Of a DNA stretch of 64,000 bases, positions 10,583 to 17,099 are shown in pieces; positions within the stretch are counted from its first letter, which is position 1; each line of letters starts with the position of its first letter. Source of the DNA: Hyphomonas sp. (lineage in GTDB: Bacteria > Pseudomonadota > Alphaproteobacteria > Caulobacterales > Hyphomonadaceae); assembly GCF_018402285.1 (NCBI RefSeq), contig NZ_JAGYJH010000006.1:496847-560846 (forward strand), read 5' to 3'. The notes under the pieces were generated by a model, which did no database searches, was not told the origin of the DNA, and was given only the letters and a program-made list of their open reading frames with translations. Both the position numbers and the translations under genes were made by a program.

Positions 10583-11968
10583 ATGACCGACACCGCCTAC
10601 GACTATGACCTGTTCGTGATTGGCGGCGGCTCGGGAGGCGTGCGCGCGGGCCGGATTGCAGCGCAGGCAGGCGCCCGGGTCGGCCTGGCCGAAGAATACC
10701 GGATGGGTGGCACCTGCGTCGTGCGCGGCTGCGTTCCGAAGAAGTTCATGGTGTATTCCAGCACCTATGGCAAACATATCAAGCTCTCTGCCGGGTACGG
10801 ATGGTCTGTGGGCGAAGTATCCTACGACCACAGCGATTTCATGGTGGCGCTGCATGCCGAGGTCGAGCGCCTTTCGGCTATCTATGACCGCAACCTCAAG
10901 AATGCGGGCGTTGATGTGTTCGATGATCGCGCCGAATTCGTGGACGCACATACGCTGCGCCTGAAAAAATCCGGCAAGACGGTCACGGCCGCGAAAATCC
11001 TGATCGCGACCGGCGGCCGCCCCTGGATGCCGTCTGCCGATGAGCTGCCCGGTATCGAACACGCCATCGACTCCAACGGCGTTTTTGAAATGGACACGCT
11101 GCCGGGGCGCATGCTGATCGCAGGCGGGGGCTATATCGCAGTCGAGTTTGCCCACATCTTTGCCGGGCTCGGCGCCGAGGTCACCCTCGTCTATCGCGGC
11201 GAGACGGTGCTGCGCGGTTTTGACGATGAAATCCGGCTCGCCGTGCATGAGGGGCTTAAGGAAGCAGGCGTGCGCGTTGTCACAAAATGCACCTTCAAAT
11301 CCATCGAGAAGACCGCAGACGGCCTCAAGGTCACCCTGAGTAGCGGCAACGAGATCGAGACCGACGTCGTGCTGATGGCGGTCGGGCGCCGGGCGAATAC
11401 GGACGATCTTGGCTGTGAAGAGGCGGGCGTGAGACTGGCAGAGCAGGGCGAGGTGATCGTCGATGAATGGTCGCGCACCAATATCGAGAACATCTGGGCT
11501 GTGGGCGATGTCACAGGCCGCGTGGCGCTGACCCCGGTGGCAATCCGCGAGGGCCATGCCTTTGCCGACACAGAGTTTGGTGGCAAGCCCTGGAAGATGG
11601 ATCACAGCAACATTCCGACCGCTGTGTTCACCCAGCCGGAAGTCGGCACAGTCGGCATCTCCGAAGCCGAGGCCCGCAAGACCTTCGGCGAGATCGACAT
11701 CTACAAGACGAAGTTCCGCCCGATGAAAAACATGCTCAACGGCGACCAGACACGTACCTTCATGAAGATCGTGGTGCGCGCGTCCGACCAGCGCGTGCTG
11801 GGCGTGCACGTCGTGGGCGAAGACGCCGCCGAGATGATCCAGACCGCTGCGATTGCCGTGAAGATGGGCGCGACCAAGCAGGATTTCGACGAGACCTGCG
11901 CGCTGCACCCGTCTGCAGCTGAGGAACTCGTCACGATGCGGACGAAATGGGTGCCTGAAGGGGGCTAG
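10583..11968 (+). CDS. gor: Glutathione-disulfide reductase
   Basis: NADPH-dependent reduction of oxidised glutathione. The 461-aa flavoprotein has the FAD dinucleotide-binding motif GGGSGGVRAG (residues 14-23), the redox-active disulfide Cys45/Cys50 in GGTCVVRGCVPKK, the NAD(P)-binding GGGYIAVEFA, and the dimer-interface catalytic histidine in LHPSAAEE near the C-terminus. VRGCVPKK is the glutathione-reductase version of the disulfide motif. The TAG stop lies in a palindromic CTAG that also supplies the stop codon of the convergent TIR-ParA gene. Confidence 0.95.
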   Translation: MTDTAYDYDLFVIGGGSGGVRAGRIAAQAGARVGLAEEYRMGGTCVVRGCVPKKFMVYSSTYGKHIKLSAGYGWSVGEVSYDHSDFMVALHAEVERLSAIYDRNLKNAGVDVFDDRAEFVDAHTLRLKKSGKTVTAAKILIATGGRPWMPSADELPGIEHAIDSNGVFEMDTLPGRMLIAGGGYIAVEFAHIFAGLGAEVTLVYRGETVLRGFDDEIRLAVHEGLKEAGVRVVTKCTFKSIEKTADGLKVTLSSGNEIETDVVLMAVGRRANTDDLGCEEAGVRLAEQGEVIVDEWSRTNIENIWAVGDVTGRVALTPVAIREGHAFADTEFGGKPWKMDHSNIPTAVFTQPEVGTVGISEAEARKTFGEIDIYKTKFRPMKNMLNGDQTRTFMKIVVRASDQRVLGVHVVGEDAAEMIQTAAIAVKMGATKQDFDETCALHPSAAEELVTMRTKWVPEGG

Positions 11969-13272
11969 TGCCCCTTCTTCCCCTCGTTCAGTGCCCGGAT
12001 CTCCAGAGCAACCTGCTTAAGGCTTTCGCGGATGGCCTTGAGCCCCCCGCCGCGCCCGGCATGGGTGACGAGCTGGCGCCAGGCAGGCTGGTCTTCCTGC
12101 GGGGCCCTGACCGCAAAATGGGCCGAGCGGGGCAGGGCGGCGGTCAGAAGCGCCTTTGACAGGGCAAAGCCTGCCACGCCATCAAACACGCCATTGCGCG
12201 CATCGGCCTCGAAGGTCGACTGTTCGTTGCGGTTGACCGCATTGAACAGGATGCAGAGCTCCGGGCGCTTGCTCTCCTCCACCTGGTTCTGGATCACCTG
12301 ATTGAGCAGGCGCACCCCGCGCAGGGAATAGATATCCGCATGCATCGGGGCGATCACCCGGTCGGCCGCTTCCAGCGCGCAGCGGGTGAGGAAGGTGGCG
12401 TTGGGATTGGTGTCGAACACGATGAGGTCATACTCGCTGCGATAATGTTCCACGCAGCGCAGGAAATGCTGTTTCACGGCGGCCAGCGCGTCCGGGTCGC
12501 CTGAGAAGGCGTATTTGGAAATCTCGAACTGCCCGGAGATGATGTCGAGCCGGCCCGGCGGGCCCTCAACGCCGAGGATGGAATGGACAAACTGGTCCCG
12601 CGGCGCCGGCGTGAAAGGCTGGGTGGTGAGGCTCAGCCAGTTCTCGGCCGGAGACGCCGCGTCGCGCGCGTGGAGGCGCGAGCGCTCGAACAGCGATATG
12701 ACCGACCGGTCCTGCGCGGAGGAGGCGTCGGCCGCCTCCATCGAATAGAAGGTCTGGGTGAGGTTGTATTGCGGGTCGAGGTCGATCAGCAGGACGCGCC
12801 CGCCAAAGGCTTCCTGCCACGCGCCGAACACTTGCGCGCTGACGGTGGTCTTGCCGACCCCGCCCTTGAGGTTCATCACCGCGATGACCGGGCACTTCTT
12901 CCGGTAGGCGTCCTGCGCTTCTGCGACGAGCTGCGCCAGCCCGTCCGGGAGGGAGGATGAGAGGCGCAAGTGCGGCTGGACTTCCTGCTTGAAGAAGCCG
13001 TTGAGGCGCGCCTTGTCGACCTGGTAGGGGATGAGCTTGAGACCAAGCGCCTTGGCCGCTTCGACATCCTGGCGCACCCATTTGGAACGCACGGCAGCGG
13101 CCGAAACCAGCATGATAACGGCAAACGCCTTGTCGATGGCGGCGTCAGCCTCCTCGCGGGAGGTGTCCTCTCCGGGGTAGTATACCGTTACGGACGCAGC
13201 CCGCAGCGCTTCATGCAATGCGAGCAGGGCGTCCGGGTCTTTGCCCGAATGGCTTATGTATATGTGCGACAT
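11965..13272 (-). CDS. TIR domain-ParA/MinD-type ATPase fusion protein
   Basis: A 435-aa soluble protein joining two domains. Residues 1-90 read as a TIR fold: HIYISHSGKD at the start (the S-x-S-x-x-D box), VTVYYPGED, AFAVIMLVSAAAV, then SKWVRQDVEAA and KLIPYQVD. Residues 128-425 are a ParA-like P-loop ATPase: deviant Walker A KGGVGKTT (136-143), Walker A' LLIDLDPQYNLT, and Walker B-like LIVFDTNPNATFLT. At the position of the catalytic TIR-NADase glutamate (WVxxE in SARM1-like TIRs) the protein has Asp69 (WVRQD), so NAD hydrolysis is uncertain. There is no ParB or parS partner nearby and no defence genes around it. The ATG at 13272 is chosen over one at 13341 because it starts at the first beta-strand of the TIR fold and follows GAGG/GGGG. 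The function is unknown. Confidence 0.85.
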   Translation of the reverse strand: MSHIYISHSGKDPDALLALHEALRAASVTVYYPGEDTSREEADAAIDKAFAVIMLVSAAAVRSKWVRQDVEAAKALGLKLIPYQVDKARLNGFFKQEVQPHLRLSSSLPDGLAQLVAEAQDAYRKKCPVIAVMNLKGGVGKTTVSAQVFGAWQEAFGGRVLLIDLDPQYNLTQTFYSMEAADASSAQDRSVISLFERSRLHARDAASPAENWLSLTTQPFTPAPRDQFVHSILGVEGPPGRLDIISGQFEISKYAFSGDPDALAAVKQHFLRCVEHYRSEYDLIVFDTNPNATFLTRCALEAADRVIAPMHADIYSLRGVRLLNQVIQNQVEESKRPELCILFNAVNRNEQSTFEADARNGVFDGVAGFALSKALLTAALPRSAHFAVRAPQEDQPAWRQLVTHAGRGGGLKAIRESLKQVALEIRALNEGKKGH

Positions 13273-13368
13273 GTGGCCCCGCGCCTCATGGATATTCTGT
13301 CTGGATGGGCCTTTTAACGGGCCAATCCGCGATTCCGCCATCTTCTTGCAGTGAAATTATGGTGAAAC

Positions 13369-13397
13369 TTGAGCAAGGGGCGCTCATATGTTTTATG
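13369..13397 (+). promoter_or_regulatory. Candidate sigma-70 promoter of the DAHP synthase gene
   Basis: TTGAGC at 13369-13374 and TTTATG at 13392-13397 are separated by 17 bp, and the start codon follows at 13426. The TIR-ParA gene diverges from the same intergenic region. Assigned by eye only. Confidence 0.4.
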
Positions 13398-13425
13398 CGG
13401 CAAAACTTCTAGTGAGACCCGAGCA

Positions 13426-14802
13426 ATGACCTGGCATCCTTCCGACTGGCGTAACCTGCCTGCCAAGCACATCCCGCAGGATTATCCTGACGCGGCCGCC
13501 CTGGCAGCTGTTGAAACCCGCCTGAGAAGCTTTCCGCCGCTGGTTTTTGCCGGCGAGGCACGCCGCCTGAAGGCGCGGCTGGCCGATGTGGCCGCGGGCA
13601 AGGCGTTCCTGCTGCAGGGCGGGGACTGCGCCGAGAGCTTCAAGGAGTTTCACCCGGACAATATCCGGGACACGTTCCGCGTGATCCTGCAGATGGCCGT
13701 TGTGCTGACCTTTGCAGCGGCCAAGCCGGTCGTGAAGGTGGGCCGCATAGCCGGGCAGTTCGGCAAGCCCCGCTCCGAGCCGACCGAGACGATCAATGGC
13801 GTGACGCTGCCCTCCTATCGGGGCGACAATATCAACGGGATGGAATTCACCCCTGAGTCCCGTATTCCGGACCCTGAGCGTCTGATCCAGGCCTATTCGC
13901 AATCGGCCGCGACGCTCAACCTCCTGCGCGCCTTCAGCCAGGGCGGCTATGCGAGCCTTGCCAACGTGCATCGCTGGATGCTCGGCTTCGTGGACCGCTC
14001 GCCGCAGGGCGAACGCTATCAGAAGCTGGCCGACCAGATCTCTGCCTCGCTGCGTTTCATGGAGGCCGTTGGTCTCAACGCCGAGAGTGTTCCGCAGATG
14101 TCTCAGGTGGAGTTCTACACCAGCCATGAGGCGCTGCTTCTGGGTTATGAGGAAGCGATGACCCGCATCGATTCCACGAGCGGCGACTGGTATGACACCT
14201 CCGCCCACATGCTGTGGATCGGCCACCGCACGCGCCAGATCGATCATGCCCATGTCAATTTCTGCAAAGGCGTCAAAAATCCCATCGGCATCAAATGCGG
14301 CCCCGGCCTTGAGACCGACGAGCTGCTGCGGATGATTGATACGCTGAACCCGGCTGACGAGCCTGGCCGCATCACGCTGATTTCGCGCTTCGGCTCGGAC
14401 GGCGTGGCCAAAGGCCTGCCCCCGCTTGCCCGCGCAGTGAAGAAATCCGGCCGCACGGTGGTCTGGTCCTGCGACCCGATGCACGGCAACACGCTGAAAA
14501 CCGGCACTGGTTTCAAGACGCGGCCTGTAGACCGTGTGCTGTCTGAAGTGCGCCAGTTCATCGATGTTCTGTCGGCGGAAGGCTGCTATCCGGGCGGGGT
14601 CCATTTCGAGATGACCGGCCAGAATGTCACCGAGTGCATCGGCGGCGCGCAGGCGATCTCGGAAGAAGACCTCTCCAGCCGCTACCACACCCATTGCGAC
14701 CCGCGTCTCAATGGCGAACAGGCGCTGGAGCTCGCCTTCCTCGTGGCAGAAAAACTCCAGGCCGCAGAAGCCGGCGCGGACGCGGCTCGTAAGGCGAGCT
14801 GA
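13426..14802 (+). CDS. Class II 3-deoxy-7-phosphoheptulonate (DAHP) synthase
   Basis: Catalyses the first step of the shikimate pathway, condensing phosphoenolpyruvate and erythrose-4-phosphate. The 458-aa protein matches the plant-like class II type: QGGDCAESF near residue 66, [12 protein letters not shown] near 106, [14 protein letters not shown] near 126, and [12 protein letters not shown]-like [12 protein letters not shown] near 345. A longer reading frame begins at 13369, but [21 protein letters not shown] is the family N-terminus. It is a single gene with no other aromatic-pathway genes beside it. Confidence 0.95.
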
Positions 14803-15464: not shown

Positions 15465-17099
15465 TCACTCCGTCAGATAGCCCTTCTTGCCGGGCAGGAT
15501 GAGAATATCAACGCGCCGGTTTTCTGCGCGGCCTTCCTCGGTGGCATTGTCTGCCACCGGACGGCTCGCGCCATAACCCTTTATGGTCACGTCTGCGGGA
15601 ACCGGCGATATCTTGGCCGACAGGTTTGCCCAGACAGATTTTGCCCGGTTCTCCGAAAGCGTCTGATTGGACGCGGCCGAGCCGGTTGAATCGGTATGAC
15701 CCTCGACCGTCACGCGGATGTCGGCGCCATAGTTTTCCAGCTGGGCGGAAAGGTCGCTGAGGGCAGCTTCCGCTTCCGGCCTGATCTCGAACTTGCCCAC
15801 ATCAAACAATAGCGCGCTGTCGAGCGAAAGACGGATCTCAGCGCCGACGGCGGCGATGGCGTCAATGTCGGCCCCGGAGTGATTGCCGCCGCAGGCCGCG
15901 CTGGCATTTGTCAGCCGGACGAACGGAAACTTGTCGCCCTTCTGGACGAACGGGCCGATATCGACGTCCGAACGGGCGCCTTCGATCTCGCCCACTTCGA
16001 TCCAGTTTTCTCCATCTGAGGATATGGCGAGCTCGGTTTTCTCGATCACCGGCCCGATCTCGAAGATATAGAGGTCCACCCCGTCCACATCGACAAGGAT
16101 ATTGTCCGTAAACTGCGTGACGAGAGCGCCGTTACAGCCAAGGGAGATGAAGTCTGCGCTGTAGGTGTTGCGGTAGTCGGGTTCGCCCAACGCAGTCTCC
16201 GGGAAGTCAAACGGCGGCTTGGAGGGCCGCTCGCCCGGCGTGAAGCTCACGACCCGGTCGGCAAAGGAAAGGGCGCCGAGCGGCAGGCAGATTTCCCGCT
16301 TGCCGCTGCCATAGACACGGCCGGGGCAGTCATCGCTTTCGCGGCCCTTGCCCGGGGCGTCCCGGTCGATTTTTGGCGGGGGCGCTTCAAGTGTCTTGGG
16401 CAAGAGAAGGCGGATGTCTTCTTCAGTGATGCCCGCCCCGCCGCTGCCCTTGATCAGGGCCTTGAGCTCGGCATTGGTGGCGGTGAAGCGTCCGTCGGAT
16501 TGCTCTTTCAGCAGTGCGTCGAGTTCCTCCTTCGTCATCGTGAAGGACCCGCCCATGCTCTCGACCAGATGATGCAGCGTCGGGCCCGTCAGTTCCAGGA
16601 CCGGGCCCATCCGGGCGAGCTCCAGCGCCTTCTGGGCGCCGGGCGTTGCGGCCACCAGCCCGTCCTGCGCCGCGCGCAGGGCGCCGGTCCCGCTGCCGGT
16701 GTCGTCCTCGGCAGCGGCCTCCTCGGCGAGCGCCATCTGGTCGGCCAGCGGGCTGAGGTCGAGGGTGGGGTAGGCGTCCTGCAGCTGGCTGAATTCCCCC
16801 GCCGTCGCGCCCACCTGTCCATCACTGGTGAAATTCCACAGCGCGACACGGCCATCGCCGCGCGCCTCGACCCAATAGACCGTGCCATCCAGATCCGTGA
16901 CGGGGATAGCGGTTTCCGGCAGGCCTTCCGGGCGGACAAATCCGTCATCGGCCGCAGCGGCGGCTTGCGGCGCGCCGCCTTCATCAGACGTCATGGGTGG
17001 CTCAGGTGCTTCCGGACTGGCCGGGGCAGGGCCGCTACCCCCACAGGCTACAAGCAGAACGAGGCCGGCGCTGGCCAGCAGGGTCTTCATAGTCGCCAT
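15465..17099 (-). CDS. Large OmpA-domain lipoprotein
   Basis: A 544-aa lipoprotein (lipobox LLVAC, Cys19) expected in the outer membrane facing the periplasm. After a Pro/Ala-rich linker comes a region of unknown fold (60-280), then a beta-sandwich-like stretch (about 282-420: SFTPGERPS, VDLYIFEIGP, AISSDGENWIEVG) resembling secreted carbohydrate- or ligand-binding domains. It ends in an OmpA peptidoglycan-binding domain (425-535: LLFDVGKFEIRPEAEAAL, VEGHTDSTGS, LSENRAKSVW, NRRVDI). The start at 17099 uses ATG overlapping the TGA of the upstream gene by 1 bp, with GAGG 8 nt upstream, so the two are translationally coupled. It probably tethers the outer membrane to the wall. Confidence 0.82.
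   Translation of the reverse strand: MATMKTLLASAGLVLLVACGGSGPAPASPEAPEPPMTSDEGGAPQAAAAADDGFVRPEGLPETAIPVTDLDGTVYWVEARGDGRVALWNFTSDGQVGATAGEFSQLQDAYPTLDLSPLADQMALAEEAAAEDDTGSGTGALRAAQDGLVAATPGAQKALELARMGPVLELTGPTLHHLVESMGGSFTMTKEELDALLKEQSDGRFTATNAELKALIKGSGGAGITEEDIRLLLPKTLEAPPPKIDRDAPGKGRESDDCPGRVYGSGKREICLPLGALSFADRVVSFTPGERPSKPPFDFPETALGEPDYRNTYSADFISLGCNGALVTQFTDNILVDVDGVDLYIFEIGPVIEKTELAISSDGENWIEVGEIEGARSDVDIGPFVQKGDKFPFVRLTNASAACGGNHSGADIDAIAAVGAEIRLSLDSALLFDVGKFEIRPEAEAALSDLSAQLENYGADIRVTVEGHTDSTGSAASNQTLSENRAKSVWANLSAKISPVPADVTIKGYGASRPVADNATEEGRAENRRVDILILPGKKGYLTE

Follow-up and report, generated by a model that had tools for sequence, protein, structure and literature searches.

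Bacterial TIR domains are usually interpreted as immune effectors that consume NAD+, and exchange of their catalytic glutamate for glutamine is a classical loss-of-function change. Among ParA-like ATPases, TadZ/CpaE carry a receiver-like head on the ATPase. According to the portion of PMC7282519 available to us, NADase function needs the glutamate in all prokaryotic TIR domains examined, and the accessible part of PMC9153377 adds that TIR domains without this residue still require TIR-TIR association. On the ATPase side, the available text of PMC10241942 describes ParA partners as very diverse and terms ATPases without an identified partner orphans, while that of PMC7159879 places MinD/ParA-like domains, predicted to be inactive, in conflict systems and contains no TIR-ParA fusion. 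Here we describe a gene of Hyphomonas sp. that joins a TIR domain to a ParA-type ATPase (henceforth TIR-ParA), located in a 64,000-nucleotide stretch of contig NZ_JAGYJH010000006.1 (assembly GCF_018402285.1, positions 496,847 to 560,846; henceforth the window). A domain screen could label it a defence gene. We lean, if only slightly, towards reading it as a chromosomal ParA-type spatial-organisation ATPase with a non-enzymatic TIR head for assembly or as an adaptor.

A TIR head on an intact ParA-type ATPase

The gene and its two domains were delimited as follows.

13272..11965, minus strand: TIR-ParA fusion gene, 435 aa (open reading frame, ORF, and translation; start backed by homologues)
12919..13272, minus strand: TIR domain, residues 1-118, with Asp69 at the catalytic-Glu position (Pfam TIR_2 and AlphaFold2 fold)
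11968..12897, minus strand: ParA-type ATPase domain, residues 126-435 (AAA_31 and Soj fold)

An alternative, longer frame is open from 13341; the homologue alignments begin at Met 13272, and in L084, L086, L090, L091 and L092 an in-frame stop directly precedes the counterpart of this residue. Both halves that a sequence-only reading of this DNA had proposed were recovered by profiles and by fold. Pfam TIR_2 matched residues 4-87 with 42.1 bits, above its cut-off of 28 (E 1.5e-10), and AAA_31 the ATPase part (E 2.7e-26, 93 bits), and all 36 aligned TIR-ParA members matched both families (TIR_2 with E up to 0.01). None of the 25 NCBIfam families among the matches listed reached its cut-off, and no published description of a TIR-ParA fusion was recognised among the matches listed in the literature searched, in agreement with the earlier view that the architecture lies outside the standard TIR set.

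The AlphaFold2 model of the whole protein, built with 36 homologues as input, has a mean pLDDT (the per-residue model confidence) of 89.5. Because a VIA search with this model listed mostly ATPase-domain matches, residues 1-118 were folded separately, and their model reached 95.1. The comparison with SARM1 and ThsB proposed by the sequence-only reading finds a TIR fold, so that the refuting outcome named there, an N-terminus of another fold, did not come about: VIA aligned the head model to SARM1 9mw2_A (Z 15.3, root mean square deviation (rmsd) 2.5, 117 residues aligned) and ThsB 6lhy_A (Z 14.9, rmsd 2.6, 115 aligned), and likewise to TRR-2 4w8g (Z 16.0, rmsd 2.0, 112 aligned), SPARTA 8i87_G (Z 15.6, rmsd 2.3, 117 aligned) and MyD88 7beq (Z 14.8, rmsd 2.3, 116 aligned). 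The one non-TIR protein in the top 50 Foldseek rows was a nucleoside deoxyribosyltransferase, and another enzyme of this kind scored Z 13.6 against the head in structural superposition.

The ATPase half retains the complete deviant Walker A (NLKGGVGKTT) and the Walker B that had been read from the sequence, and has the motifs IDLDPQ and VFDTNP. Thirteen residues (N134, K136, G137, G138, G140, K141, T142, D164, D166, Q168, N170, D287 and P290) are invariant in 36/36 rows of alignment A2 (A2 and A3 each hold 36 hand-chosen sequences), a set that covers the deviant-Walker criteria KGGxGK[T/S], namely the signature Lys, the switch Asp and the Walker B Asp. The best structural match of this part was Soj 9a6n_A (Z 26.5, rmsd 2.6, 247 aligned). 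In Soj 1wcv the counterpart of D166 is the second Asp of DLDPQ; at that place 2bek has DLAPQ.

The Asp of WVRQD in the head is residue 69, which we take to stand in the place of SARM1 E642, going by the motif of NADase TIRs and the matching fold and not by a residue-level superposition. Besides the window, which is present twice (P0001 and L009), the first homologue alignment contained 84 loci, of which 79 are distinct; it included L098, a copy without the TIR part at a contig end. Position 69 is Asp in 38/38 Hyphomonas rows (window counted once), Gln in 17 of the 21 related (Henriciella-group) rows (with three Asp and one gap), and Glu in 16 of the 20 distant rows (two Asp, one Ala, one His); mapped on a tree built from the ATPase part only, these states require at least seven changes. 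Trp65 was found in 16/80 rows (window counted twice). The replacement of the catalytic Glu by Asp therefore stands for the window and for every Hyphomonas row, but neither Asp69 nor Trp65 is family-wide. A catalytic use of the Asp, one of the options raised earlier, is weakened by the Gln of 17 related rows and by the Ala and His of two distant ones; its strict conservation within Hyphomonas is the main fact keeping an Asp-based activity possible, and for the distant members, most of which have Glu, there is room for NADase activity.

Both domains are under purifying selection among close relatives, with median ratios of nonsynonymous to synonymous substitution rates (dN/dS) of 0.105 for residues 1-115 and 0.076 for residues 126-432 (21 pairs of seven close sequences). 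The TIR part evolves faster than the ATPase part in all three groups, identities being 72.7 vs 78.9% within Hyphomonas, 54.3 vs 69.7% within the related rows and 33.2 vs 50.1% within the distant ones. That the head is kept under selection although it is devoid of the Glu suggests a structural function, and of the possibilities raised earlier for the TIR half, binding or oligomerisation is the one we favour.

Distribution and the small second gene

A search for the domain pair across genomes revealed a conserved, syntenic, single-copy family that the sequence-only reading had overlooked. A near full-length copy (at least 70% identity) is present, always single, in 41 of 42 Hyphomonas genomes; in two of these genomes (G038, G013) the match continues past a stop close to the C-terminal end. 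The remaining genome (G018) is 83% complete and misses the adjacent DAHP synthase gene too, so the region is probably unassembled. At family level 67/105 genomes matched at E 1e-20 or better, some partially, including 19 of the 29 genomes listed for genus g3 (two of them partially). A draw from the order gave 72/299 genomes, all in Hyphomonadaceae (f1) or one other family (f3). A class-wide draw searched with the single sequence gave 2/385, both Hyphomonas, and a class-wide profile search brought four more that match in the ATPase part only (positions 116-369 at most); since at most four candidates per genome were scored class-wide and five in the order search, absences there are weak. Among the matches listed (40 of 326 and 8 of 25), none was a plasmid or phage record covering 80% of the protein, and a plasmid or phage origin of the window copy was set aside on this basis.

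At the distant loci the ATPase gene seldom stands alone. In 19 of 20 distant loci (L101-L120) a small ORF of 79-146 aa lies directly behind it, with a 4-base overlap of stop and start in at least 11 of the 19, and we infer that its product is a partner of the ATPase. The sole distant locus without it, L101, is a Hyphomonadaceae copy (38% identity) in the slot between gor and the DAHP synthase gene. Among 15 small ORFs searched against Pfam (alignment A1 likewise holds 15 of the 19), no family matched more than one (best E 0.004), and six small ORFs gave PADLOC matches of E 0.02 at best. In the 46-row tree 29 TIR-ParA rows group on one side of a branch (support 100/97), and the nearest non-TIR ATPases, L136 and L138, join them with support 99/89 and a long-branch warning on that join. 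This tree and a second one, of 79 rows made by a quick method, both carry long-branch warnings, which concern L102, L119 and L101 and, in the smaller tree, the join just named. L136 and L138 also have an ORF behind the gene (175 and 181 aa). Given that such an ORF follows both the distant TIR-ParAs and these two genes, the ancestral unit looks like a pair of ParA and small partner with exchangeable heads, and TIR-ParA probably descends from a two-gene module of this kind. L138 itself (L138:1276-2903) is a ParA with a head of about 80 aa that appears helix-turn-helix-like by eye, with no Pfam match at E 1e-5.

In 16 Hyphomonadaceae loci that were inspected, six of them from Hyphomonas, no partner-like ORF was seen behind the gene, and in 31/31 testable Hyphomonas loci the gor-like gene occupies that ParB-type partner position. 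A partner profile run against 61 genomes (37 Hyphomonas, the window's own included, and no positive-control genome) gave a best E of 0.067; a second profile search, of the 105 family genomes, matched five, the sole Hyphomonas hit (E 0.024) lying inside a 1304-aa frame and the strong matches in G074 and G075. These two profile searches thus found no convincing homologue of the partner in Hyphomonas, although a very diverged one could escape them. L102:895-1293, L173 and L174 (G074, G075) are partner-like genes that have no TIR-ParA as a direct neighbour. The name "orphan" given earlier is thus right for Hyphomonas, where no partner was found, and does not extend to the distant loci. We file TIR-ParA as a variant of the orphan ParA kind.

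Neighbourhood and alternative explanations

The genes around TIR-ParA are housekeeping ones, as the sequence-only reading had recognised and Pfam confirmed.

10583..11968, plus strand: gor-like gene, convergent, with a 4-base overlap with the end of TIR-ParA (Pyr_redox_2 and Pyr_redox_dim)
13273..13425: intergenic region of 153 bp between TIR-ParA and the divergent DAHP synthase gene
13351..13367, plus strand: direct repeat GTGAAA-N5-GTGAAA inside the conserved block of the shared intergenic region
13426..14802, plus strand: class II DAHP synthase gene, divergent, ATG at 13426 (DAHP_synth_2, 698 bits)

The gor-like product is of the disulphide oxidoreductase type, with 52% identity to an annotated Sinorhizobium gor. 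A divergent DAHP synthase gene lies within 3 kb of TIR-ParA in 31/31 testable Hyphomonas loci, 21/21 of the other Hyphomonadaceae and 14/18 f3 loci (0/1 for L102), and a convergent gor in 31/31, 9/21, 0/18 and 0/1, respectively; in L118 a DUF4010 gene separates TIR-ParA from the DAHP synthase gene. Without TIR-ParA, gor stands directly beside the DAHP synthase gene in G061, G049 and G068, all three of genus g3, and in G081, and it does so in Sinorhizobium and Shinella as well, so the TIR-ParA gene was probably inserted into an ancient gor/DAHP synthase pair. This slot has other occupants. Plain ParA genes followed by a 122-aa ORF lie between the two genes in G074 and G092; in the ATPase tree they are placed away from the TIR-ParAs, and they were rejected as orthologues. 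A plain ParA with a small ORF sits between gor and the DAHP synthase gene in L145 (5478-6694) and L156 (1706-2928), and L147 (5700-8567) has two tandem pairs of this type upstream of DAHP synthase. Elsewhere, L105 has TIR-ParA and its small ORF between dxs and flagellar basal-body genes (Pfam confirmed dxs, FliE and a rod-type gene, and gave no confirmation of a supposed flgB), and L106 shows the same setting by eye. Inspected by eye for a mobile context, the flanks of L102, L103, L105, L106 and L119 look chromosomal.

Of the roles suggested earlier, chromosomal positioning is the one we prefer, and we infer nucleoid binding, TIR clustering and a positioning role. In Hyphomonas the TIR head would have ceased to be an NADase and would serve in self-association or as an adaptor. 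ATP-bound TIR-ParA dimers would attach to the nucleoid, their TIR heads would cluster the protein or hold cargo, and hydrolysis through D166 would cause release, the outcome of the cycle being a moving gradient. Several points weigh against such a role. Hyphomonas has no detectable partner, nor has L101, which keeps the Glu; that the TIR head fills the partner's place is a guess. The gene is cleanly absent in some relatives and hence dispensable there, the strict Asp69 of Hyphomonas is more than an unconstrained position need show, and the conserved DAHP synthase neighbour may reflect slow rearrangement and not function.

Besides defence, the main rival to spatial organisation is regulation at the shared promoter: the protein would act at the 153-bp region, coupling DAHP synthase expression to nucleotide state in the manner of ParA-type autoregulators. 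We consider this unlikely. The divergent arrangement with DAHP synthase described above speaks for it, and so does the direct repeat between the two genes, whose starts lie 150-166 bp apart in 31/31 testable Hyphomonas loci. The repeat is conserved in Hyphomonas (exact in 28/31 loci), and the 3.04-Mb assembly contains no exact copy besides 13351-13367. It has, however, no exact copy in the non-Hyphomonas loci among 86 DAHP synthase upstream regions scanned; as the gene pair occurs in those genera, the old synteny is not explained by it. The median start-to-start distance in the f3 loci is about 1.5 kb, relatives have DAHP synthase without TIR-ParA, and Pfam gave no match to a sequence-specific DNA-binding domain in the protein. 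The repeat halves resemble what we take to be half of the parS consensus, arranged as a direct repeat. A parS-like site was not found in the 64-kb window at up to three mismatches (0.53 expected by chance), which, with the lack of a partner-like ORF at the gene, upholds the earlier statement that neither ParB nor parS is nearby. CtrA boxes occurred in 0/53 (one-mismatch boxes in 2/53 vs 1.1 expected). GANTC occurred in 39/53 vs 23.6 by base shuffling, with 25 sites in one column of 33 aligned Hyphomonas rows; shared ancestry can explain this, and the two cell-cycle motifs were not used as evidence.

Less probable still is an anti-phage or abortive-infection factor in which the ParA part would detect invading DNA or replication, while the TIR acts on NAD+, possibly via the Asp. 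TIR domains are common in defence systems, and the TIR region of the window protein matches PADLOC SAVED_TIR (E 1.2e-4) and ThsB (E 0.01), with stronger matches in some distant members (SAVED_TIR 2.4e-9, PDC-S66 1e-8), where moreover the Glu is mostly kept (16/20 rows); fixation of the Asp in Hyphomonas can be counted on the same side. These models are spanned only in part (80/404 positions of SAVED_TIR, 77/183 of ThsB and 86/352 of another ThsB model, E 0.011). The suggestion of a solitary anti-phage factor fits poorly with a single-copy gene of 41/42 Hyphomonas genomes and a synteny fixed in 31/31 testable loci, with housekeeping neighbours, with the lack of plasmid or phage records at 80% coverage among the matches listed, and with the Gln of 17 related rows, a classical loss-of-function change. 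No Thoeris-type effector gene such as ThsA lies beside TIR-ParA, and eight of nine neighbouring proteins have no PADLOC match at E 1e-3. The other one (15468-17099, beyond DAHP synthase) matches ZorB models (best E 4.9e-16) through a C-terminal OmpA/MotB-type part; only this part matched, and we took it as generic. A PDC-M28B match was likewise discarded as generic ParA similarity, since it covers only the Walker A stretch (residues 124-166). Elsewhere in the window's genome (G000, contig C3:527293-538469), three more TIR_2 matches in frames of 825-1583 aa occur within about 11 kb, possibly a defence cluster.

The least probable explanation is that the segregation module of a mobile element left a remnant that became fixed here, with no present role beyond self-maintenance. 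It could draw on the nearest non-TIR kin, which are ParA genes with a small ORF behind them (a join with a long-branch warning), and on the other ParA/small-ORF pairs between gor and DAHP synthase in two other genera, but purifying selection on both domains and presence in 41/42 genomes of the genus speak against it.

Comparison with known systems

In returning to the spatial-organisation reading, it is worth stressing that a near-universal, syntenic protein of the genus pairs a TIR domain with a fully preserved ParA motor, and that within one family the decisive position varies naturally between Glu, Asp, Gln, Ala and His. Hyphomonas are budding, prosthecate bacteria, in which TIR-ParA provides a tractable orphan ParA. 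If the reading is true, it shows that cell organisation can draw on bacterial TIR domains as assembly modules. A bolder scenario, which we regard as doubtful, is that a TIR domain left immunity: in the line to Hyphomonas and Henriciella a module of TIR-ParA and partner became a core gene and lost both the NADase residue and the partner, so that binding of the cargo or clustering fell to the TIR head itself, in what would be a new class of ParA organisers made of one protein.

Compared with TIR NADases (SARM1, SPARTA TIR-APAZ, ThsB), the head has the same fold (Z 14.9-15.6), whereas the Glu is replaced by Asp in Hyphomonas and by Gln in most Henriciella-group rows, and the context is a housekeeping one. 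The fold is also that of the TIR adaptors MyD88 and MAL; here we claim no kinship at sequence level and propose assembly independent of the Glu as a possible analogy. TadZ/CpaE, also with an alpha/beta head on a ParA-like ATPase, may be an analogue of head-driven localisation, but among the families represented in the structures searched the head of TIR-ParA best matches TIR (49/50 Foldseek top rows). With the ParA/Soj partition ATPases TIR-ParA shares the fold, the deviant Walker A and the hydrolysis Asp, and it differs from them by its TIR head and by having no adjacent partner gene and no parS-like site in the window. The orphan and positioning ParA-MinD proteins (McdA, PpfA, ParC), as described in the available parts of PMC10241942 and PMC9178275, are likewise chromosomal ATPases, and the small, diverse downstream ORF of the distant TIR-ParA loci adds to the likeness; the Hyphomonas protein departs from this kind in lacking the small ORF, in having no known cargo gene adjoining and in carrying a TIR head.

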